Origin: Sedimenticola thiotaurini
GTDB taxonomy: Bacteria > Pseudomonadota > Gammaproteobacteria > Chromatiales > Chromatiaceae
Length of the DNA: 64,000 nucleotides
Direction: 5' to 3'
NCBI GenBank assembly: GCA_007713595.1
Contig: VMRY01000003.1
Span: 434,001-498,000 of the forward strand
Made by a program: the position numbers and the translations under genes. Positions 38,072 to 52,776 of this stretch are shown piece by piece. Position 1 is the stretch's first letter, and each line of letters begins with the position of its first letter. The notes under the pieces were generated by a model. The model did not search any database. It was given only the letters and a program-made list of their open reading frames with translations, and was not told where the DNA came from.

Positions 38072-39925
38072 GTGAAAGAAGTCAGTAATCCCTATCTCCT
38101 TCCACACCGAGCACCCCTTAGTAGTGGTGATGATACCTTTGAGCCAAAGCGCTTCAAGCGTCTGGTGGAAGAGTTGCCTGTGGGTAATGTGGGCCAGGTG
38201 ACGCAGACACTGTTAAAACTCATCAAACAGATGAATGCCGCCAGTATCCCGGTTGCCAGTCGGGTTAGTAACATGGAGCAACTCCTTGAGCCGCTGCTCT
38301 TTACCCTCAGTATCCTGAATAAGGGCTTTGCCAGGGAGCATCTGCCACTCTCGCCGCGGGTCGTGATGATATCGGAATTACATGAAGAGCTCTGTGTGCT
38401 TTGTGTGCAGGCCTACAAAGTAATATTGGATCAGTATCACAACGAATCGCTGGCGGGACATCTGCTGCACAAATCGAATCGTGCCATGGCGCTGCATAGA
38501 GTGCTCTATTTTCTCGGACAGAACCTATTGCAGTGTTATCTTCTCTATCGACCGGCGCCTCAGCACATCTGGCATGAGATTCATGGTATCCACCGCTATG
38601 CAGTGGACCAGAAGCTCTCCGATCGGGCAGTAGACAATGAAGGCGAAAACAGAGCCCGGCAGTCATCGGTCAATGACATGTATAAACGGTTGTTACTGCT
38701 TTCGCTGTCTGGTCCTTATCGTCTTATGCAGGGGGAAGTGCAACGCGTCTACCTGGCGCTGATGCGCTGGGCACCGAGGGCACATTTGTTTGATCTTGGT
38801 AAGAGCAATGGTGATGCGGGTCAGTACATTGTGGATATCGGGGCTGATGAGCCGCCCCGTGTAAGAGGTGCTGAACGTGATCATCAGGTTCTGAAAGGCT
38901 GGGTATTGGAAACCGGTGAGCTTGCAGTTCACTTGGCGGATGAGTTGGAAGCGAGTGAAGTCCCGCATGGCGTCATGCGACCACAGGTTACTCCTGACAA
39001 GATCGCCCCAGACTTGCTGGCGCGATTGATGTTGACCTGGGGTATAGGTTCACAACGTGTTTCTGATCGGGATGACACACCAGGAGAGTTGTCCCTGGTG
39101 TGTGGATTGGAGGCCATCTATGCCTTTGTTGGGGGTGAGCAGATTCCAGGATTTTCCACAAAGCCGGGCGCTTTTAATGGAGTCTCTGCTCCAGAAAAAA
39201 CGGTGAAAAAAACCACAGGTGTCCCGCGGGCGCTATTAGAGCCAGATGAGCGAGTGATTGATGATGATCCTGAATTGGAGAACATCAGGAAATGGATTAC
39301 CCAGAGCAATCAATCGGTAGTTATTGAACCGGTAGAACAAGAGCCGCCAGCAAGTAGCCCCGAGCCTGCTGAAGATGAATTGGTTGGAATTGAATTGCCA
39401 GTGCCTCGAAGTTGTCTGATTTATAACGAGAGTGTCAATGGCTATCACCTCGGCTGGACGGGTGGCGGTGATGAACAGATTACGGTTGGTGAACTGGTCG
39501 CCGTGTCGGGACAGGGTGGGCATGACGCAGGGCTATTACGCTTGGGGGTAATTCGGTGGATGCGAGCGGAGCACCCAGATGTCATCGATTTTGGTGTGGA
39601 GCTCTTCCCTGGTGATATTACTCCAGTGATCTTTTCTCGAAAGTGGGGGCGTTCGAAGCTGCCGGCCTATTGGCCAGGGCTTTTGCAGCAGCGACCAAAT
39701 GAAGATCCGACAATTATCACAGCACCGTTTTACTCCGAAGAGAATGAAAAGACCTGGCTGACGGTGGATGGCGAGAAAAGGAAGGTATTCCTGACCCGGG
39801 TTATTGAAGCGACTGCCTCCTTTATTCAACTCTATTATCAGGATCAGACAGCCGCAGTAGAGCAGGCCGCATCGCAGACGGAATTTAGTGAGAAAGATTT
39901 TGATCAGCTCTGGACCAGTCTATGA
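38072..39925 (+). CDS. Large cytoplasmic protein with C-terminal PilZ-like fold
   Basis: This 617-residue protein has no signal or membrane span. Residues 1-430 are mostly helical and unrecognised, with a Pro/Glu-rich linker at 415-440. From V444 on, the pattern PRSCLIYNESVNGYHLGW and a beta-rich run resemble a PilZ barrel. N452-E-S454-V-N-G457 stands in for the usual DxSxxG c-di-GMP motif, and the RxxxR arm is not clear. It might bind c-di-GMP or be a degenerate PilZ. GGGAGAG precedes the GTG start. A link with the GGDEF-EAL protein at 18.9 kb is speculative. Confidence 0.65.
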   Translation: MKEVSNPYLLPHRAPLSSGDDTFEPKRFKRLVEELPVGNVGQVTQTLLKLIKQMNAASIPVASRVSNMEQLLEPLLFTLSILNKGFAREHLPLSPRVVMISELHEELCVLCVQAYKVILDQYHNESLAGHLLHKSNRAMALHRVLYFLGQNLLQCYLLYRPAPQHIWHEIHGIHRYAVDQKLSDRAVDNEGENRARQSSVNDMYKRLLLLSLSGPYRLMQGEVQRVYLALMRWAPRAHLFDLGKSNGDAGQYIVDIGADEPPRVRGAERDHQVLKGWVLETGELAVHLADELEASEVPHGVMRPQVTPDKIAPDLLARLMLTWGIGSQRVSDRDDTPGELSLVCGLEAIYAFVGGEQIPGFSTKPGAFNGVSAPEKTVKKTTGVPRALLEPDERVIDDDPELENIRKWITQSNQSVVIEPVEQEPPASSPEPAEDELVGIELPVPRSCLIYNESVNGYHLGWTGGGDEQITVGELVAVSGQGGHDAGLLRLGVIRWMRAEHPDVIDFGVELFPGDITPVIFSRKWGRSKLPAYWPGLLQQRPNEDPTIITAPFYSEENEKTWLTVDGEKRKVFLTRVIEATASFIQLYYQDQTAAVEQAASQTEFSEKDFDQLWTSL

Positions 39926-40648: not shown

Positions 40649-41134
40649 TTAGGCAACAGTATCTTTTAACGCTTTCAGCGCGGTGACCTTTACCACGGTC
40701 GTTGCTCTTTTAGCGGCGATCTTGATCGCTTCGCCAGTGGCTGGGTTGCGACCCATGCGAGCTTTGCGTGCAGGCTTGACCACACGACGAACCTTTACGC
40801 CAGTCTCTGGTATAGCAAATTCACCAGATCCACGACGCATCATGTGACCCTTTACCAAGCCGCCCAGTGCTGTAAATACATCAGCGACTTGCTTCCTGGT
40901 CAGGCCGGTATCTTCGGCAATGGATTGGAGTATTTGGGTTTTGGTCTGTTTGGTGGTGATTGCCTTTGCTGTTGCAGGTGCAGCAGCTTTTTTTGCTGGT
41001 GCCTTTTTCTTGGCAGGTGCCTTCTTAGCAACAGCTTTTTTAGCCACAACCTTCTTCTTCGTGGCTACCTTCTTTTTTGCTACGGGTGCTTTTTTCGCAG
41101 CAGGTTTTTTTGCGGCTTTTTTCTTGACGGCCAT
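40649..41134 (-). CDS. HU-family DNA-binding protein with Lys/Ala-rich histone H1-like N terminus
   Basis: This protein has 161 residues. Residues 1-55 are repeats of Lys, Ala and Pro (KKAPAKKAA type) like histone H1 or AlgP tails. Residues 60-161 are a full HU/IHF fold (LTRKQVADVFTALGGLVKGH, then GRNPATGEAIKIAAKR). It should bind DNA without strong sequence preference and compact it through the tail. TAGGAG precedes the ATG. Repeat-type coding DNA in the tail may vary in length between strains. Confidence 0.9.
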   Translation of the reverse strand: MAVKKKAAKKPAAKKAPVAKKKVATKKKVVAKKAVAKKAPAKKKAPAKKAAAPATAKAITTKQTKTQILQSIAEDTGLTRKQVADVFTALGGLVKGHMMRRGSGEFAIPETGVKVRRVVKPARKARMGRNPATGEAIKIAAKRATTVVKVTALKALKDTVA

Positions 41135-43289: not shown

Positions 43290-46200
43290 ATGGCCGTAGT
43301 ACCCAAACAGAATGGGTTGGATATCCTGCGGAAGCTGGTTCCGCTTAATACGCTTACAGAGGAGACTCTGGCTGAGCTGATGGATACTGTTGAGTTTGAA
43401 AAAGTATCCAAAGGTGCTTTTATATTCCGGGAGGGGGATTCTAGTCCGGAACGGATCTATCTGTTATCGGGCAAGGTCGCATTGCTGGAGGCCGGCAAAG
43501 AGATCGATACCGTGGCCGCTGGCACAAACATGGCGCGCTACCCTGTGGCGCATCATATTCCCCGTAGATACAGCGTACAGGCCAAAACCCGAGCGGAAGT
43601 CGTACGTATTGGCAATCGATTGCTGAGTGATCTGCTCTCTCGTGGTGGAAATGCCCTCTACCAGGTGGAGGAGTTAAATACGGAATCAGAAGATGACTGG
43701 ATGAGCCAGTTGTTGCAGTCACCCATCTTTCAGCGTATCCCTGCGGCCAATATTCAGAACATCATGATGCGTATGGAGGAGATGCCTGTCTCTTCCGGCG
43801 AGATAGTGATACGACAAGGTGATGAGGGAGACTTTTTCTATCTCATCAATCGGGGGCAGTGTGCAATTACCAAAGAGCAGGAAGATGGTGAGATAGCGGA
43901 GATCGCGCGCCTCGGTCCGGGTGATTCGGTGGGCGAGGAGTCACTGCTCTCCGGTCAGAAACGGGGTAGCACTGTCAGCATGTTGACTGATGGCGTTCTG
44001 TTTCGTTTGGGCAAAAAAGATTTTATCGAATATATCAAACTACCCCTGGCTAATGCGATTGGCTACGAAGCGGCGCTGGATAAAGTTTCAAAAGGCGCTG
44101 TATGGTTGGATGTGCGCTCGGCACTGGAATATGAGCGGTCACATATTCCTCAGAGTATCAATATCCCTTTCAATGATCTTCGCTCAAAAGTTTCCGAGCT
44201 CGATTCAAACAAGACATACGTGGTCTATTGCCAAGATGGGTTAGTCAGCTCAACAGCCATCTACCTGTTGATGGAGCGTGATCTGGATGGCTTTGTTCTG
44301 GAACGTGGCCTTGAATCAGTGCCAGATGAAATCGTTAATAAAGAGCGGACACAGGATGGTGCTCAGATCATCAATTTCAGACCTGACCTGGATGACTCAG
44401 CTACCACACAAATTGATAGCAGCACCGCACCTGATGATGAAGCGAGCCTGCTAAGAGAGCGTCTACACAAGACCGAGGCCCAGGCTCAAGAGCAGTTACA
44501 GCGCGCCAGAAAAATGAAGCTGATGCTGGAGAAGCTGAAAGGACGTTTGGCTGAAGCGGAAGAGGAGGGTGGCAAAGAGAGCAAAGAGCGCCAACGCCTG
44601 GCGGGAGAGATAGAGAGCCTGCAGCATCGGTTACGTGAGCGTGACGAGGCACATGGCGCTTTGAAACAGAAGCAGTCAGCTGTAAATGAACAGTTGAGTG
44701 ATTTGAAGGCGGAGCGGGATCAGTTGCAGGACGAGCTGACCAAGATGTGCCAACAGGTTGGCAAGCTTGAGAAACGTCTTGAGGCGAAACAGCAAGAGGA
44801 AGAGGCGCTTAAAAGTCTGCAGTCTGAGAGCCAGCAGAAAGCGCAGGCACTGATAGAGCTGAAGAGTGAGCTTGATACAGAGAGATCGAACCGCCTTCAA
44901 TCAGATGAACAGAATAAATCATTACAGCTGGCGCTGGAGGAAACCAGAGCTGAGATCAACAAACTCAATAATGAACTGCAAACCCGCGACACATCAATAG
45001 AGCAACTAGAACAAAAGCAGCAATCAGTGGAAGCAGCCCAGACTGAACTGGAGACAGAGCGCACTTCGCTACAGAATGAAGGGCAGAAGTTACAGAGTGA
45101 ACTTGATCAGGCGCGGGCTGAGATCGATAGATTAACCGGTGAACTCGCAACACAAGTCCAAGCGATCCAGGCGCTCGATGGTCAACAGCATACATTGGCG
45201 GAAACCCAGTTGGAACTTGATCGGCTCAATAGAGAGCTGCAAGCGCGCGATGAATCGCTACAACAGTTACAGCAGAATCAACAATTGCTGGATGCTAATC
45301 AGAGTGAGGTGGCTGCATTAGAAACCGCACGCGCCGCACTTGAGACTGAGCATACGGCACTCAAGTCTGAACTCGAACTGGCCCAGACAGAAATCAAGCA
45401 GCTGACAGTCGAGATAACAGACCATACAGAGGCGAACCAGAAACAGAAGTCCGAGCTGGAGCGTTTGGAGCGTGAGCTGAAAGAGGCGCAGAATTCCGTT
45501 ATCAGTTTACAGGCAGAGCAATCCCAGGCGGGAGAGAGCGAGCTGTCATTAAAGGCCTCTCTGGAGACGGCAGAGAGTCGTATTGCTGAACTTGAATCAG
45601 AGATCTCCAATCGAGAAAGTGATGAGAACGAGCGAGCCGAAAAACTGACTCTCCTGGAAAAGCAACAACTGCTCCTGAATTCAGAAATTGATCAACTGCG
45701 TGGTGAACTGGAGGGCGCCTCTGCCCAGGTTGCCGCGCTTGAGTCTGAGCGAAATGAAGCTGAAAAACTGTTTCAACAAAATAAGACAGAGCTTGAGTCA
45801 ACACTTAAACAATCACTTTATGAGGCGGTCGAAGGGCGTACGCATGCTGAGAATGAGTTGCGGAACATCACCGATGAGCGGGATCGACTGACCGCAGAGC
45901 TGTCCGTGCTCAAGACTCATCATGAACAGTTATTGCGTCAGGCCGATGAGCATCAGCAGGCATTAGCGGAACTGGAAGGAGAGAAGGCGACTGCTGGCAG
46001 TGAGGTGCTGTTGTCGAGTCAGGTGGAACAGGCCAGGTTGGCTGAAGCACTGGATAAGGCCAGCGCAGAGTTGACTGGATTACAGGCGTCAATAGAAGAG
46101 AAAGACCAGACATTGGCGGAGCTCTCCAAGACCCTGAATGAAAAACAACAAGAGGGAGAACAAGCCAGCACAAGATTACTTGATGCTGAAAATGAGCTCA

Positions 46201-48383
46201 AAACGTTGCAGGCTGCAAGTAAAGAGCTGAATGAAAATTTACTCAATCTGCAAGCAGAAAAGGAGCGTATAGAAACGGAATTTGAAGCTGGCCAGCAGGT
46301 GATTGTTGATCTTCAGTCGAGATTAGCCGCAGCAGAATCACAAGAACTGCAAGAGTCCGCAGAGTTATCCAGCTTGCGCGCAGAGCTTGAAGAGATGGCA
46401 GCCGCCAAGGCCGCTGCTGAGGAAGCTGTTGCGCTGGCTCAAAGCCGCAGCGCAAAAGGCAGTGGCGTTAATGCTGACGTGAAGGTCTTGCAGGCAGAGC
46501 TGGCGACACTGAATGATGCCCTGGATGAAGCGGATCATTCATATGAACAGTTGAATAAGGAGAAGCTGGCGCTTGAAGGGGAGCTGAGTCGCTTACAAGC
46601 AGATGCCTCTAATGTGGTTGAAGCGAGTCATAAAGAGGCGGCAGAGCAGGAGGTGACCAGGCTGACGGCGGAGCTGGAGCGCTTGCAAGAACAGCTCTCC
46701 AGTAATGAATCGTCCAGTGAGAAAATTGCGGCACTGGAATCAGAGTTGGCGTTGGTTCGTGAGCGGACAGAAATCGACCTCGGACAGATGCGCAGTGCCT
46801 TGGGAGCCGCAGAAAAGGGCGAAGGAGGAGTTCAGCCCGTTGTAACTTCTGCAGAACTTGATACCTTGCGCGCAGAGTTGGACGAAGCACGCATGTCGCT
46901 CAAGGAGTTGGAGTTAAGCAGTTCAGCCGATGCAGCCGAGAGCGAGGTCTTGCGTCAGGATATCGATAAACTGACACGCTCACTGGATGAGCGGAGTGCG
47001 GAACTTGAGAAGGCCCGCAAACAGAGCCTGCTACTTGAGGAGAAGACCGAAGAGCGCAACAGTGAGATTGATCGACTTAAGCTGGCACTTGAGGCAGCGC
47101 AAGTCGATGCAGATGAAGCGCAGTTCAAAAAAGATGAGGCGCTTGAAGCCAGGAAGCAGGTGGAAGAGGCGCTGTATAAGCTGCAGAAACAGGTTGAGAG
47201 TGAACGACCCAGAGACGATCTTCTGGATAAGCGCGTTGCAAGCAATGATGCGGCCTTTTCCATCCCACAGCAGGGGGGGCGCAAGAGTGCATTCTCTGCA
47301 CTGCTGATAGGTGCTGTTTTGGCGTTTGCAGGAGCAGAGGCACTCTCTATTCTCTCCGGAAAAGGGGAGATCGTCAGTGGCTTCATGGATGGGCAAGATG
47401 CCGCCGTCTTGAGAGAATCAGCTGCGCCGGCTGAGTCATCGCGGGAGCTGGTGCCGACTCCTGTTATTGATACGCCTGCACCCAGCCCGAGTCAGATTGC
47501 AATAACCAAGACACCATCCGCTGAAACAGTGACTGAGCGGGCTGAGCCTGAGGTTTTAACAAAGCCGATCATCACTCCACCGCCTCCAGTTGTAACGCGC
47601 AGGGAACCCGTGGTTGCCAAGGCGCCGCCAAAACCGAAGGAGCCGGAAACCGGCAGTCCGATTCAAGATAGACTTTTTGATGGGGGTAGCGGACCAGAGA
47701 TGCTGTATGTTCGGGGCGGAACATTTGAGATGGGCAGCCGGATCAATCATCTGTCCAGTGAAGAGTTGCCTGTGCATGAAGTCAGGCTGGGCAGTTACAG
47801 TATAGGTAAATACGAAGTGACTTTCCGGGAGTATGAGCTGTTTGCCGCTGCAACAGGACGGCCTCTACCGGATGATCTGGGTTGGGGCCAAGGGCCGCGA
47901 CCGGTTATTAATGTAAGCTGGAATGATGCAAAAGCCTATACAGTCTGGCTCTCTGAACAGACGGGAAAACGTTATCGACTACCCACCGAGGCTGAATGGG
48001 AATATGCTGCCGCTTCGGGTACGGATACACCGTACTGGTGGGGTTTTGATCTGGGCAGTGAAAATGCCAACTGCTTCAATTGCGGCAGCCAATGGGATGG
48101 TGTTTCCACAGCACCAGTTGGAAGGTTTGAGTCCAATGCTTACGGTTTGCATAACACGGCAGGCAATGTCATGGAGTGGGTGGAAGATTGCTATCACAAC
48201 TCATATGAAGGTGCGCCAACGGATGGTTCAAGCTGGCAAGAGCTCGGTTGTAGTGAACGTGTAATACGTGGAGGAGCTTTTAATAAACCCGGTGAGAGTC
48301 TGCGGGTGACAAAACGAGGCCGGTATGACGCGGATGCCAAGTTGTTTGTACTTGGTTTCAGGGTTGCGCGGGATGTTCGGTAA
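43290..48383 (+). CDS. Giant multidomain protein: CNB-CNB-rhodanese-coiled coil-membrane span-FGE-sulfatase fold
   Basis: This 1697-residue protein has two cyclic-nucleotide-binding folds, at about 12-120 and 143-255. The second keeps a phosphate-binding cassette, VGEESLLSGQKRGSTV; the first does not. A rhodanese domain (about 265-350) has its Cys at 314 in YCQDGLVS. A heptad-rich coiled coil runs from about 385 to 1325. One membrane span lies at about 1334-1353, then a Pro-rich linker. From 1471 there is an FGE-sulfatase (SUMF1-like) fold (TFEMGSRINHLSSEE, YRLPTEAEWEYAA, GNVMEWVEDCY). The Cys pair used by true formylglycine-generating enzymes is missing (RGGAFNKPGESLRVTKRG), so that fold is probably not an FGE. 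Predicted topology: sensor and coiled coil in the cytoplasm, FGE-like domain in the periplasm. GGGAG precedes the ATG. I know no named family with this order. Confidence 0.88.
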   Translation: MAVVPKQNGLDILRKLVPLNTLTEETLAELMDTVEFEKVSKGAFIFREGDSSPERIYLLSGKVALLEAGKEIDTVAAGTNMARYPVAHHIPRRYSVQAKTRAEVVRIGNRLLSDLLSRGGNALYQVEELNTESEDDWMSQLLQSPIFQRIPAANIQNIMMRMEEMPVSSGEIVIRQGDEGDFFYLINRGQCAITKEQEDGEIAEIARLGPGDSVGEESLLSGQKRGSTVSMLTDGVLFRLGKKDFIEYIKLPLANAIGYEAALDKVSKGAVWLDVRSALEYERSHIPQSINIPFNDLRSKVSELDSNKTYVVYCQDGLVSSTAIYLLMERDLDGFVLERGLESVPDEIVNKERTQDGAQIINFRPDLDDSATTQIDSSTAPDDEASLLRERLHKTEAQAQEQLQRARKMKLMLEKLKGRLAEAEEEGGKESKERQRLAGEIESLQHRLRERDEAHGALKQKQSAVNEQLSDLKAERDQLQDELTKMCQQVGKLEKRLEAKQQEEEALKSLQSESQQKAQALIELKSELDTERSNRLQSDEQNKSLQLALEETRAEINKLNNELQTRDTSIEQLEQKQQSVEAAQTELETERTSLQNEGQKLQSELDQARAEIDRLTGELATQVQAIQALDGQQHTLAETQLELDRLNRELQARDESLQQLQQNQQLLDANQSEVAALETARAALETEHTALKSELELAQTEIKQLTVEITDHTEANQKQKSELERLERELKEAQNSVISLQAEQSQAGESELSLKASLETAESRIAELESEISNRESDENERAEKLTLLEKQQLLLNSEIDQLRGELEGASAQVAALESERNEAEKLFQQNKTELESTLKQSLYEAVEGRTHAENELRNITDERDRLTAELSVLKTHHEQLLRQADEHQQALAELEGEKATAGSEVLLSSQVEQARLAEALDKASAELTGLQASIEEKDQTLAELSKTLNEKQQEGEQASTRLLDAENELKTLQAASKELNENLLNLQAEKERIETEFEAGQQVIVDLQSRLAAAESQELQESAELSSLRAELEEMAAAKAAAEEAVALAQSRSAKGSGVNADVKVLQAELATLNDALDEADHSYEQLNKEKLALEGELSRLQADASNVVEASHKEAAEQEVTRLTAELERLQEQLSSNESSSEKIAALESELALVRERTEIDLGQMRSALGAAEKGEGGVQPVVTSAELDTLRAELDEARMSLKELELSSSADAAESEVLRQDIDKLTRSLDERSAELEKARKQSLLLEEKTEERNSEIDRLKLALEAAQVDADEAQFKKDEALEARKQVEEALYKLQKQVESERPRDDLLDKRVASNDAAFSIPQQGGRKSAFSALLIGAVLAFAGAEALSILSGKGEIVSGFMDGQDAAVLRESAAPAESSRELVPTPVIDTPAPSPSQIAITKTPSAETVTERAEPEVLTKPIITPPPPVVTRREPVVAKAPPKPKEPETGSPIQDRLFDGGSGPEMLYVRGGTFEMGSRINHLSSEELPVHEVRLGSYSIGKYEVTFREYELFAAATGRPLPDDLGWGQGPRPVINVSWNDAKAYTVWLSEQTGKRYRLPTEAEWEYAAASGTDTPYWWGFDLGSENANCFNCGSQWDGVSTAPVGRFESNAYGLHNTAGNVMEWVEDCYHNSYEGAPTDGSSWQELGCSERVIRGGAFNKPGESLRVTKRGRYDADAKLFVLGFRVARDVR

Positions 48384-48982: not shown

Positions 48983-49264
48983 ATGAAAAAACAACAAGAA
49001 CCGGGAGAATTGTCAGCCAGAGGTACAGGTCGTGCGCGTATGTTGGTTGCGGCAATACTGGGTGCCCTGCTACTCAATCCACCGTTGCTGGAGATTTTTT
49101 CAGTTGACCCTTCAGCACGTCTGTTTGGCTGGCCATTAATACTCTTTTACATAAATCTGACCTGGATTCTCCTGATTGTCATGGTGTTTCTTCCGAGGCT
49201 AGCTGTTTTGTTTAAACCTCTGGGATCTGCAGCTCAGCGGCTGCTGGGTAAAAGGTCTGACTGA
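48983..49264 (+). CDS. Small two-span membrane protein coupled to the CbrA-like kinase (CbrX-like)
   Basis: This 93-residue protein has two hydrophobic helices (MLVAAILGALLLNPPLLEIF and WPLILFYINLTWILLIVMVF) and a basic end. Its TGA overlaps the ATG of the kinase gene as TGATG, so translation is coupled. Position, size and coupling match CbrX, which precedes cbrA in Pseudomonas. Similarity in sequence could not be tested. AGGA precedes the ATG at 48983. Confidence 0.75.
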   Translation: MKKQQEPGELSARGTGRARMLVAAILGALLLNPPLLEIFSVDPSARLFGWPLILFYINLTWILLIVMVFLPRLAVLFKPLGSAAQRLLGKRSD

Positions 49265-52200
49265 TGCAGTTTGCCTGGTGGGTGTTCTTTATCTCTCTGG
49301 CCTATTTGGGGTTGCTGTTTCTGATAGCTCATTTTGCTGACAGGCGCGCAGCGCAGGGAAAAAGATTTGGCGCCAATCCTTATGTTTATTCGCTCTCTCT
49401 TGCTGTGTACTGCACCTCCTGGACATTTTATGGCAGTGTTGGGCGGGCAGCTACGGATGGTATCGGTTTTCTACCAATCTATCTTGGGCCGACCCTTCTG
49501 TTTATGGTGGCCCCCTTTCTGCTGAGAAAAATTCTCAAGATTGCGCAGGCACAACGTACAACATCCATTGCCGATTTCATCTCTTCCCGTTATGGAAAGA
49601 GCCAACTGCTTGCCGGACTGGTAACGGTGGTAGCTGTGATTGGGATCATGCCTTATATCGCCCTGCAACTGAAAGCGGTCTCTACCAGCTTCGATATTCT
49701 GAGCCGCTATCCCGTTATCGCGGCTACGGCTTCAGATCCTGTTGCGGTGCTTAGTGATAAGGCTTTTTACGTTACGATTCTTCTTGCCCTGTTCACTATT
49801 TTTTTTGGAACTCGCCGGTTGGATGCCTCTGAACACCATGAGGGTTTGATGGTGGCGATTGCATTTGAGTCATTGGTAAAACTGTTTGCGTTTATTGCAG
49901 TCGGTGTCTTTGTCACCTTCTTTATGTTTGACGGGTTAGAGTCGATCTTTGACCAGGTGACGGATAATGCGACACTGTCCGAGTTGATTTCAGGTCGTGC
50001 GCTTTTTGATAACGGTAGCTGGACGTTTCTAATGCTGTTGTCAGCGCTGGCCGCTTTCTGTCTTCCCAGGCAGTTTCAGGTTACCGTTGTAGAGAATACA
50101 CATCGCTCCCATCTGGACACGGCGATGTGGCTGTTTCCACTCTACCTTCTGTTGATCAATCTGTTTGTGCTTCCAATTGCCATTGCAGGTTTGGTGACTT
50201 TTCCTGGGGGCGGCATAAATGCAGATACCTTTGTTCTGACTTTGCCGATGTCAGCCGCACAACCGGCACTGGCATTGTTGGTTTATATTGGCGGACTCTC
50301 GGCGGCCAGTGGCATGGTGATTGTGGCAACTGTGGCACTCAGCACCATGGTCTGTAACGATCTGATTGTGCCGGTGATGATGCGCTACCGGTTGCTACAT
50401 TTTGGGCGTATGGAGTCCACAACTGCCACCGGAATGCTCAAGGCACTTAGACGCATCACGATCATCGCTATCCTGCTGCTCTCATACAGCTATTTTAAAA
50501 TTATCGGCGATTCCTATGCTTTAGTGACCATCGGATTGGTCTCTTTTGCTGCTGCAGCCCAGTTCGCACCGCTGATTATTGGTGGAATTTTCTGGAAAGG
50601 GGCTACATTAAAAGGGGCAATAGCCGGACTCAGTACGGGCTTTTTGGTGTGGGGGTACACACTGGTCTTGCCAGCCTTTGCCCAGTCAGGCTGGTTGCCG
50701 CTTTCGTTTATTGAGCAGGGCCCGTTTGGTTTAACCCTGTTAAAACCACAGGCGCTGTTTGGCGTTAGTTGGGATAGTCCGCTGTTACACAGCCTGTTCT
50801 GGAGCGCCTTCATTAATGTTGGTCTCTACCTCTCCGTATCCTTGTTTACCCGGCAAAATCTGATTGAGTGGACGCAGGCAAGGGCATTTGTTGATGTATT
50901 TGAACATAAAAATGAGTATGTCACGCGTCCCTGGGAAGGCCAGATAAGGATCGCCGATCTGGAGCGAACAGTGTTGCGCTTTGTTGACTCTGATCGGGCT
51001 ATGAGTCTGTTTGGTCGTTATCGTGATAGTAGTTTGTCAGGTTATTCGCCAGGTATGGATGCGCCTGCCGACCTGCTTACGGAAGTTGAGAAATTACTCT
51101 CCGGGGTTATCGGCTCGGCCTCGGCAAGAGTGCTGATCAATACCAGTCTGCGGCGTTCCAATATCAATCTGGACAATGTTCTGGATATTATCGATGAGGC
51201 CTCGTTGGCAGTTGAGGCCAGCCGTGAGGTATTGAAGTCGGTTATTGAAAATGTTGACCAGGGTATCTCCATGTATGACAAGGAGATGAATCTGGTTGCC
51301 TGGAACAGACGCTTTGTTGAAATAAATGATATACCCGAGTCGCTGCTACGGGCCGGTGTGACTTTGCGCGATCTCTGTCTGTATAACCTGGATAAGGGTG
51401 AGTATGGCGAGGTGGAGGATCGTGACGCGTTTATTGAACGCTATATTCATGACGCCTTTCAATTACAGCGCACAGTGTTCGAAAAGAAACGCCCGAATAA
51501 CACCATTATCGAGGTGCGCAGAACACCGCTGGCTACGGGGAGTGTGGTCACTACCTATACCGATATTACCCAATCCAAACAGGCCGAACTGGAACTGACC
51601 CGGCTGCGGAATTTATTGGGGAATATGATTGATTCCATGCCATCTGCACTCATTGGCATTGATGTCGATGGTCGGATAACGCATTGGAATCGTGAAGCGG
51701 AACGCATGAGTGGATTGCGTGCCGTGAATGCGATTGGTCAACTGTTATCCGAACTGTTTCCGCTGTTTCCTGATGTACTGCGTAAGATAGCGCGCTCAAT
51801 TCAGACACTCTCACCTGATCAGGCCAGCAATCTGCGCTGGGAAAATGACAAGGGCGAGGTGCGCTATATGGATGTGACCGTCTATCCGTTGCTGGGTGAA
51901 GGCGTGGAGGGTGCGGTGATTCGACTGGACGACGTGACTGAAACAGTACGCATGGAAGAGATGATGGTGCAATCGGAAAAGATGTTGTCGGTAGGTGGCT
52001 TGGCCGCAGGTATGGCGCATGAAATCAATAACCCGTTAGCGGGTATAGTGCAGAGTGTTCAGGTTATTAATACCCGGCTAGGACGCGAGATGGATAAAAA
52101 TCGTAAGGTGGCGGAAAGCTGTGGTACGTCGATTGATGCAGTGGCTGATTACATGGATAAGCGTGGCATAACGGCCCTGATGGAGATGGTTTCTGAATCC

Positions 52201-52776
52201 GGCAAACGGGCAGCAAAGATCGTCAGCAGCATGTTGAGTTTCAGTAGAAAAAGTGATCTCAAGTTTGAGTTGCGCGATCTGCGTTTGCTGTTGGATGAGA
52301 CAGTCGAGATTGCCTCGAATGATTACAGTCTGGAAAAGAATTATGATTTTCGCAAGCTCATCATTCATCGGGAATATCCGGATGAACTGCCGGATGCCTG
52401 GTGTGAAGGCGGGCAGATTCAGCAGGTGTTGCTCAACCTGTTAAAAAATGGAGCACAGGCGATGTTTGAAGCGGCGGCCGCAACACCACAGGAGGGGCGC
52501 AATGATGCCTTTATTTTGCGCATTTATGCGCGTGGTGAGTGGGTCTGCGTAGAGGTAGAGGATAATGGTCCGGGCATGAGCCCAGCGGTTCGGCGGCGCA
52601 TCTTTGAACCCTTTTTCACCACCAAGGAGGTGGGCTCTGGGACCGGACTGGGTCTCTCTGTCTCCTATTTCATCATTACCCAGAATCATCGTGGCAGTAT
52701 TGAAGTGAAGCCGGGCCAAAAGGGCGGCAGCTGTTTCGTTATCCGGCTTCCCACGGCTGCCCCGGAAACGGTTTAA
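49264..52776 (+). CDS. CbrA-like sensor histidine kinase fused to a sodium/solute symporter domain
   Basis: This 1170-residue protein is of CbrA type. Residues 1-510 are an SSS-family transporter with about 13 membrane spans (SLAVYCTSWTFYGSVGRAA is typical). A linker and two PAS domains at about 660-900 follow, then HisKA with phospho-acceptor H919 (MAHEINNPLAGI). The ATPase domain has NLLKNGAQAM, DNGPGMS and GTGLGLS. In Pseudomonas CbrA works with CbrB in carbon/nitrogen balance and histidine use. No CbrB gene is adjacent; the NtrC-type regulator at 9.2 kb is one possible partner. It might sense or move a substrate through the SSS part; inference. Confidence 0.92.
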   Translation: MQFAWWVFFISLAYLGLLFLIAHFADRRAAQGKRFGANPYVYSLSLAVYCTSWTFYGSVGRAATDGIGFLPIYLGPTLLFMVAPFLLRKILKIAQAQRTTSIADFISSRYGKSQLLAGLVTVVAVIGIMPYIALQLKAVSTSFDILSRYPVIAATASDPVAVLSDKAFYVTILLALFTIFFGTRRLDASEHHEGLMVAIAFESLVKLFAFIAVGVFVTFFMFDGLESIFDQVTDNATLSELISGRALFDNGSWTFLMLLSALAAFCLPRQFQVTVVENTHRSHLDTAMWLFPLYLLLINLFVLPIAIAGLVTFPGGGINADTFVLTLPMSAAQPALALLVYIGGLSAASGMVIVATVALSTMVCNDLIVPVMMRYRLLHFGRMESTTATGMLKALRRITIIAILLLSYSYFKIIGDSYALVTIGLVSFAAAAQFAPLIIGGIFWKGATLKGAIAGLSTGFLVWGYTLVLPAFAQSGWLPLSFIEQGPFGLTLLKPQALFGVSWDSPLLHSLFWSAFINVGLYLSVSLFTRQNLIEWTQARAFVDVFEHKNEYVTRPWEGQIRIADLERTVLRFVDSDRAMSLFGRYRDSSLSGYSPGMDAPADLLTEVEKLLSGVIGSASARVLINTSLRRSNINLDNVLDIIDEASLAVEASREVLKSVIENVDQGISMYDKEMNLVAWNRRFVEINDIPESLLRAGVTLRDLCLYNLDKGEYGEVEDRDAFIERYIHDAFQLQRTVFEKKRPNNTIIEVRRTPLATGSVVTTYTDITQSKQAELELTRLRNLLGNMIDSMPSALIGIDVDGRITHWNREAERMSGLRAVNAIGQLLSELFPLFPDVLRKIARSIQTLSPDQASNLRWENDKGEVRYMDVTVYPLLGEGVEGAVIRLDDVTETVRMEEMMVQSEKMLSVGGLAAGMAHEINNPLAGIVQSVQVINTRLGREMDKNRKVAESCGTSIDAVADYMDKRGITALMEMVSESGKRAAKIVSSMLSFSRKSDLKFELRDLRLLLDETVEIASNDYSLEKNYDFRKLIIHREYPDELPDAWCEGGQIQQVLLNLLKNGAQAMFEAAAATPQEGRNDAFILRIYARGEWVCVEVEDNGPGMSPAVRRRIFEPFFTTKEVGSGTGLGLSVSYFIITQNHRGSIEVKPGQKGGSCFVIRLPTAAPETV

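Follow-up and report, generated by a model that had tools for sequence, protein, structure and literature searches.

The window, a stretch of 64,000 nucleotides from Sedimenticola thiotaurini, contains a gene (positions 43290–48383, forward strand, as are all of its features given below) whose 1697-residue product carries in a single chain two cyclic nucleotide-binding (CNB) domains, a rhodanese domain, a long coiled coil, a transmembrane (TM) helix and an FGE-like domain. The protein belongs to a family that is widespread in Gammaproteobacteria and also occurs in split and FGE-less forms. By phylogeny, its FGE-like domain shares a clade with those of transmembrane PP2C phosphatases, a connection not made before. 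Neither point had been noticed in an earlier, sequence-only reading of this DNA. We propose, with a probability of roughly 45%, that the long protein is a single-pass inner-membrane signalling protein made up of a periplasmic sensor, a coiled-coil relay and a CNB2–rhodanese module with a PP2C-type output.

The reading frame starts with an ATG and has no internal stops. Pfam-A finds two cNMP_binding stretches (E = 3.6e-29), a Rhodanese domain (residues 264–342, E = 3.2e-13) and an FGE-sulfatase domain (residues 1468–1694, E = 7.7e-53) in it, which bears out the domain order that the sequence-only reading had proposed for one frame. Relatives were collected from 80 fetched regions, picked for holding matches, which together with the window yielded 51 proteins with FGE and 78 in which CNB2 is combined with rhodanese. 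All four domains are found in 43 chains, the window protein included, so the same order is recovered in 42 further chains, one of which is cut by a contig end. An assembly or frame artefact that fuses separate genes is practically out of the question: other genomes do have split gene pairs, but the same order occurs as a single open reading frame in dozens of assemblies, including the single-contig genomes G043, G148, G190 and G200, and the gene therefore contains no assembly join. Starts of open reading frames were assigned mechanically to the first ATG, GTG or TTG, which has probably given L228 a false N-terminal extension, and overlapping genes may be missed in GC-rich loci such as L068.

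In its own genome, the window gene is the only full-length match, and the nearest partial paralogues are a 349-residue CNB-CNB-rhodanese protein and two FGE proteins. Each of the eight further genomes searched from the genus has the long protein. The CNB-CNB-rhodanese module is found in 168 of 369 genomes of the class sample (E ≤ 1e-30) and in 17 of 299 genomes of the phylum sample (E ≤ 1e-20), five of which lie outside the class. The verified fused chain occurs in at least 28 genomes from 18 families of the class sample, a count from which G278 (FGE in an adjoining frame) and G237 are left out. In the open-licence PMC literature searched, no description was found either of the long-chain architecture, as the earlier claim of an order matching no described family had anticipated, or of the CNB-CNB-rhodanese proteins. 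The architecture is likewise absent from the accessible portions of PMC8346489, PMC12419801, PMC12604733, PMC2887360 and PMC7159879, the first of which deals, in its accessible portion, with cNMP domains and rhodaneses around encapsulins.

In three genomes (G060, G065 and G062), the chain is divided between neighbouring genes. Those of G060 and G065 are co-directional, lie 77 and 129 bp apart and encode CNB-rhodanese-coil followed by coil-TM-FGE; the pairs match residues 12–732 and 1140–1695, and 13–546 and 1210–1695, of the window protein, respectively. In 35 of the 78 N-terminal chains there is no FGE domain in the chain, seven of these 35 being cut by contig ends. Several loci (L230, L235, L237, L238 and L239) hold neighbouring or divergent pairs of CNB-CNB-rhodanese-coil genes without FGE, and a C-terminal stretch like RIK..A.AA......LL.ELA is common to the 11 complete chains printed from these loci and from L241 and L242.

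Matches to the N-terminal part, the coil and the TM helix were found in none of the 80 relatives kept out of 545 in a contig scan with FGE-domain patterns, and a scan of viral contigs found no relative. A plasmid or phage origin was rejected, as no record covered 80% of the query and the matches listed (15 of 460 and 10 of 26) concern the FGE domain only. Assignment to a defence system was also rejected: LmuB and JetC models of PADLOC match the coil (best E = 2.2e-7), and its only further matches lie in the CNB portion of the short paralogue. Conserved neighbours of the gene (an HU-like protein, a PfkB-type kinase, a Rieske protein and GGT) give no pointer to signalling or mechanism. The HU-like protein, which has a Lys/Ala-rich N-terminus (window positions 40649–41134), lies close to the gene in 28 loci. 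Positions 49264–52776 encode a 1170-residue histidine kinase with PAS domains, the first 660 residues of which have no Pfam match (seven loci of the genus), and positions 38072–39925 encode a 617-residue protein with no Pfam match that is conserved across 12 loci, counting the window.

The N-terminal module opens with CNB1 (positions 43290–43709, residues ~1–140), delineated by the second Pfam cNMP stretch and by alignments, and continues with CNB2 (positions 43710–44054, residues ~141–255). A competent CNB domain combines a phosphate-binding Gly-Glu with an Arg. CNB2 matches PF00027 and carries the full cassette G215-E216...R225, in which Gly215 and Glu216 are each found in 78/78 and Arg225 in 76/78 of the proteins with CNB2 and rhodanese. 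CNB1 retains the fold and Arg92 (78/78), but its Gly-Glu is missing both in the window protein and in the consensus. The strictly conserved pocket suggests that CNB2 binds a cyclic nucleotide. The earlier proposal that the cytoplasmic side could read such a ligand would hold for CNB2 only.

A PDB profile search with the N-terminal module gives a Toxoplasma PCR12 chain and regulatory domains of cGMP- and cAMP-dependent kinases as the best matches; a structural model of the module computed from a single sequence (pLDDT 35.5) was discarded. The module shares the tandem arrangement and the GE...R cassette with the PKG/PKA regulatory domains, but it has no kinase or known inhibitor site, its first pocket is degenerate and a rhodanese comes next. 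The short paralogue in the same genome (L003) is 39% identical over the N-terminal module and has the rhodanese loop CDSGQRS but, unlike the window protein, is without coil, TM helix and FGE; its neighbour resembles release factor 2 (by eye). Among 24 genomes with relatives, a class III cyclase is found in 19, a class I cyclase in 20 and either of the two in 23, while neither was found in G152, which has a fused chain. In G200 (C1:3072605-3075837), a short CNB-CNB-rhodanese gene has a class I adenylate cyclase gene on the opposite strand ~450 bp away; a gene with the look of an FHA domain plus a class III cyclase (L066:14778-15734, by eye) lies 2.6 kb from a CNB-rhodanese-coil gene.

The rhodanese domain (positions 44079–44315, residues 264–342) contains Cys314, as previously stated. 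This cysteine is present in 65 of the 78 proteins and lost in 13, and it is kept more often in FGE-fused chains (40/43) than in unfused ones (25/35, p = 0.015). The active-site loop of rhodaneses has the form CxxGxRS with an Arg. In the window protein, the loop reads CQDGLVS, i.e. the Cys is present and the usual Arg is absent. The Arg is found in 43 of the 78 proteins and is missing in 21 of the 43 fused chains, the window protein among them, which lends no support to the earlier idea of sulfane-sulfur sensing by this domain.

The FGE/PvdO-like domain at the C-terminus (positions 47691–48371, residues 1468–1694), predicted to be periplasmic, is delineated by Pfam, by its model and by its match to PvdO. 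The model has a mean pLDDT of 95.4, and its best solved match is PvdO (PDB id: 5hha; Z = 35.9, 1.5 Å, 238 aligned residues, 36% identity), ahead of the Treponema variable protein TvpA, FGEs (Z ~29–31) and PorK. The FGE-sulfatase fold (PF03781) named in the sequence-only reading is thus well supported, and the domain shares fold and family with FGE/SUMF1 and SUMF2. Unlike FGE/SUMF1, it is membrane-anchored in a long chain and has no catalytic Cys pair. The active-site Cys pair of FGE sits after an RGGSF motif. Of the 51 domains, one is cut; the other 50 all extend over residues 1663–1676 and have no Cys there, with the RGGSF-linked motif recognisable in part in the alignment. The loss of the catalytic pair had been correctly noted before. 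A variable protein of a diversity-generating retroelement was ruled out, as residues 1662–1694 are conserved within the genus (by eye). In the available part of PMC7159879, FGE-type C-type-lectin domains are described as effectors.

The domain has two other conserved Cys pairs, with Cys1595 found in 49/51 and Cys1598, Cys1634 and Cys1654 each in 50/51 of the sequences (one row is cut); the first pair forms a CxxC. In an alignment of 37 FGE-like domains, built on 36 of the 80 loci kept from the contig scan, the cysteines of each of the two pairs are either both present or both missing in 34, the behaviour expected of disulfides and in keeping with an oxidising compartment.

A search for coil-TM-FGE partners in 21 genomes, chosen mainly for their FGE-less or split chains, gave matches in 17; no partner was found in the other four (G014, G027, G041 and G411). 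All eight fetched matches from families other than that of the window are PP2C-TM-FGE proteins of 614–683 residues, and nine further FGE loci fetched alongside contain four more PP2C-TM-FGE proteins and five others (Pfam was run on four of the fetched proteins). A search with the PP2C part alone identifies PP2C-TM-FGE in 37 of the 369 class-sample genomes, called at E < 1e-66 and a frame of 600–735 residues, where the FGE end was checked in 24 and the other 13 were accepted by frame length. CNB-CNB-rhodanese is present in 37/37 of these genomes (baseline 168/369), PP2C-TM-FGE is present in none of the at least 28 genomes with a verified fused chain, and the 16 families with the former and the 18 with the latter have none in common, although the significance of both co-occurrence and exclusion is overstated because related genomes are counted as if independent. 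The loci of the PP2C-TM-FGE family (L247–L257, L259 and L264–L283; ~610–735 residues) have neighbourhoods that are mixed in look. Like the window protein, one member (L251, 638 residues) has its FGE domain past the TM helix and in the same clade; unlike the window protein, it carries a PP2C phosphatase in place of the cytoplasmic coil, rhodanese and CNB domains.

In a tree of 108 FGE-like domains, 41/42 fused, 7/8 unfused and 20/20 PP2C-linked domains fall into one clade (SH-aLRT 95), which holds none of the 38 other FGE-like domains, two from the genome of the window included. Left out of the tree are L064, which runs into a contig end, and L206_4, whose 196 residues fall below the limit of 200. 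The exceptions, L207 and L065, lie outside the clade; the tree stems from a quick search, and holding all 70 fused, unfused and PP2C-linked domains together improves on the likelihood of the free tree and is not rejected (p-AU = 0.907).

In two genomes of one family (L206 and L207), a PP2C domain is located within the long chain, between the rhodanese and the coil, and in one of these the FGE part occupies an adjoining frame. Since the FGE domain of L207 lies outside the clade, where it groups (87) with three Oceanospirillaceae FGE domains, L207 links the long protein to PP2C by architecture and not by descent. No PP2C motif was found in any other chain of the family, and Pfam finds no kinase or phosphatase domain in the window protein. 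Compared with the class of Ser/Thr receptors, the window protein therefore has the FGE clade and the TM position of PP2C-TM-FGE and lacks a kinase or phosphatase in the chain. Myxobacterial PP2C-cNMP proteins (Mxan4398, sce2855 and sce6950) are reported as a precedent for cyclic nucleotide-controlled PP2C; like L206 and L207 they combine a phosphatase and a cyclic nucleotide-binding domain in one chain, but their cNMP domain is C-terminal, and neither a rhodanese nor a long coil or an FGE domain is mentioned in the passage describing them (PMC2887360). Genes for PP2C and for protein kinases are present in 22/22 tested genomes and, as they are common in controls too (7/14 and 11/14), their presence is permissive only.

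Two of the three Oceanospirillaceae FGE domains that group with L207 are associated with kinases. Marinobacterium iners has a kinase-like and an FGE-like domain in one chain (L077:5309-7738), and an Osedax symbiont has a kinase-like and an FGE protein in two adjacent frames (L082:5761-7732). Like the long protein, the L077 protein (809 residues) combines a signalling domain with a hydrophobic segment, recognised by eye, and with an FGE-like domain that has the four Cys; it differs in that a kinase-like domain replaces CNB-rhodanese and the FGE domain lies outside the clade.

The similarity to PvdO raises the question of whether the FGE-like domain could be a periplasmic oxidoreductase tethered to a cytoplasmic regulatory module. 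PvdO, the closest solved structure, shares with it the fold, the lack of the FGE catalytic Cys pair, the cysteines aligned with Cys1634 and Cys1654 and the periplasmic location, and the conserved CxxC at 1595/1598 could be redox-active. According to the part of PMC6206403 available, PvdO is required for the last step of dihydropyoverdine oxidation, though the purified protein is inactive. However, PvdO is a 286-residue chain without CNB, rhodanese and coil, it has no CxxC in the alignment, and the window protein scores 147.5 bits against the PvdO equivalog NF051459, far under the 500 bits required. A sensing role would also agree better with the PP2C- and kinase-linked FGE domains. We consider an oxidoreductase improbable and favour a sensor domain.

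Some 950 residues, with high proportions of Glu, Leu, Ala and Gln, separate the rhodanese from the FGE-like domain. The coiled coil (positions 44427–47264, residues ~380–1325) has a hydrophobic repeat of 3.5 residues (z = 15.1 against shuffles), with Gly-rich breaks near residues 1057–1059 and 1165–1183, and the only prolines within residues 347–1340 are at 365, 381, 1183, 1307 and 1326. No heptad repeat was seen over residues 1175–1325, the last 150 before the membrane (z = 0.4), so this conserved juxtamembrane part is no plain heptad coil by this measure. A single TM helix follows (positions 47298–47354, residues ~1337–1355, hydropathy 2.14). By hydropathy, a TM helix lies between the rhodanese and FGE domains in 42/42 complete fused chains, and Lys and Arg residues are more numerous before it than after it in 32 of these, equal in nine and fewer in one. 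Together with the Cys pairs, these features agree with the earlier assignment of a cytoplasmic module, a membrane span and a periplasmic FGE-like domain, and we infer this topology for the family. Within the TM helix, most chains shown from the family to which the window belongs have a Glu, with a GKGE-type motif often coming next; this feature is missing in the four chains shown from other families (L055, L056, L060 and L066).

A coil of ~900 residues dominates the chain, and the protein might be a structural tether or scaffold, i.e. a membrane-anchored rod that holds the CNB and rhodanese domains and their partners off the membrane, with the nucleotide controlling assembly only. Furthermore, the FGE-less forms retain the coil (L057 and L073 end shortly past the TM helix, L051 and L063 have basic tails), and in family libraries the coil matches SMC, Rad50 and, for L220, crescentin, perhaps by composition only. 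Yet the distance from rhodanese to TM helix varies from 305 to 1299 residues across the 42 complete chains, so there is no fixed spacing, and a 130-nm coil acting as a fixed ruler, as might be read from the first estimate of its length, is unlikely. Strict conservation of CNB2 and the PP2C associations point to regulation instead. A mainly structural role is rather unlikely on this evidence.

The sequence-only reading had also suggested that the protein couples sulfur state to the envelope. SoxB is a protein of thiosulfate oxidation. It is found over the cut-off in 30 of 36 genomes with a fused chain and in 0 of 14 controls; the exceptions are G418, G211, G090, G052, G061 and G167, the last with a partial match. 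In the class sample, SoxB (E ≤ 1e-100) is present in 150 of 369 genomes: it occurs in 25 of the at least 28 genomes whose fused chain was verified and in 125 of the 341 others (Fisher p = 4e-8), and in 94 of the 168 genomes carrying the N-terminal module as compared with 56 of the 201 lacking it. PP2C-TM-FGE genomes show no enrichment (11/37). By family, SoxB (E = 1e-100 or better) is found in every verified fused-chain genome of 16 of the 18 families and in none of the remaining two, a tally that includes the partial match of G167. The earlier sulfur idea is thus backed by a statistical tie to sulfur oxidation, as a correlation only; the long protein may be relevant to sulfur metabolism. That ancestry or lifestyle accounts for the link, the protein itself being unrelated to sulfur, is a serious possibility, though we lean somewhat against it: six of the 36 fused-chain genomes are without SoxB over the cut-off and some members of the family have a degraded rhodanese loop, whereas the consistency across 16 families and the preferential retention of the rhodanese Cys in FGE-fused chains argue for a functional connection.

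In the signalling protein that we propose, the periplasmic FGE/PvdO-fold domain would act as a binding domain and not as a formylglycine-generating enzyme. Its state would be passed through the TM helix and the length-variable coiled coil to the cytoplasmic module, or be gated by that module, in which CNB2 would bind a cyclic nucleotide and the rhodanese might add an input of the sulfur, redox or phosphate type. The output would most likely meet Ser/Thr dephosphorylation, because the same FGE clade sits on PP2C elsewhere and PP2C lies inside the chain in one family; the protein may work with a PP2C phosphatase or replace it. A more specific version is a two-compartment receptor, in which the FGE-like domain would sense a compound of the Sox compartment, the rhodanese would report persulfide load, CNB2 would gate the response and the length-tolerant coil would steer a PP2C-type pathway; this version is doubtful.

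If the proposed signalling role is correct, the long protein would be a testable candidate for passing the state of the envelope or of sulfur metabolism to the cytoplasm in sulfur-oxidising Gammaproteobacteria. It would suggest that FGE-like domains without their former catalysis may act on the extracytoplasmic side as sensors for Ser/Thr phosphatases and kinases, and it would point to a way of signalling across the membrane that is so far undescribed.
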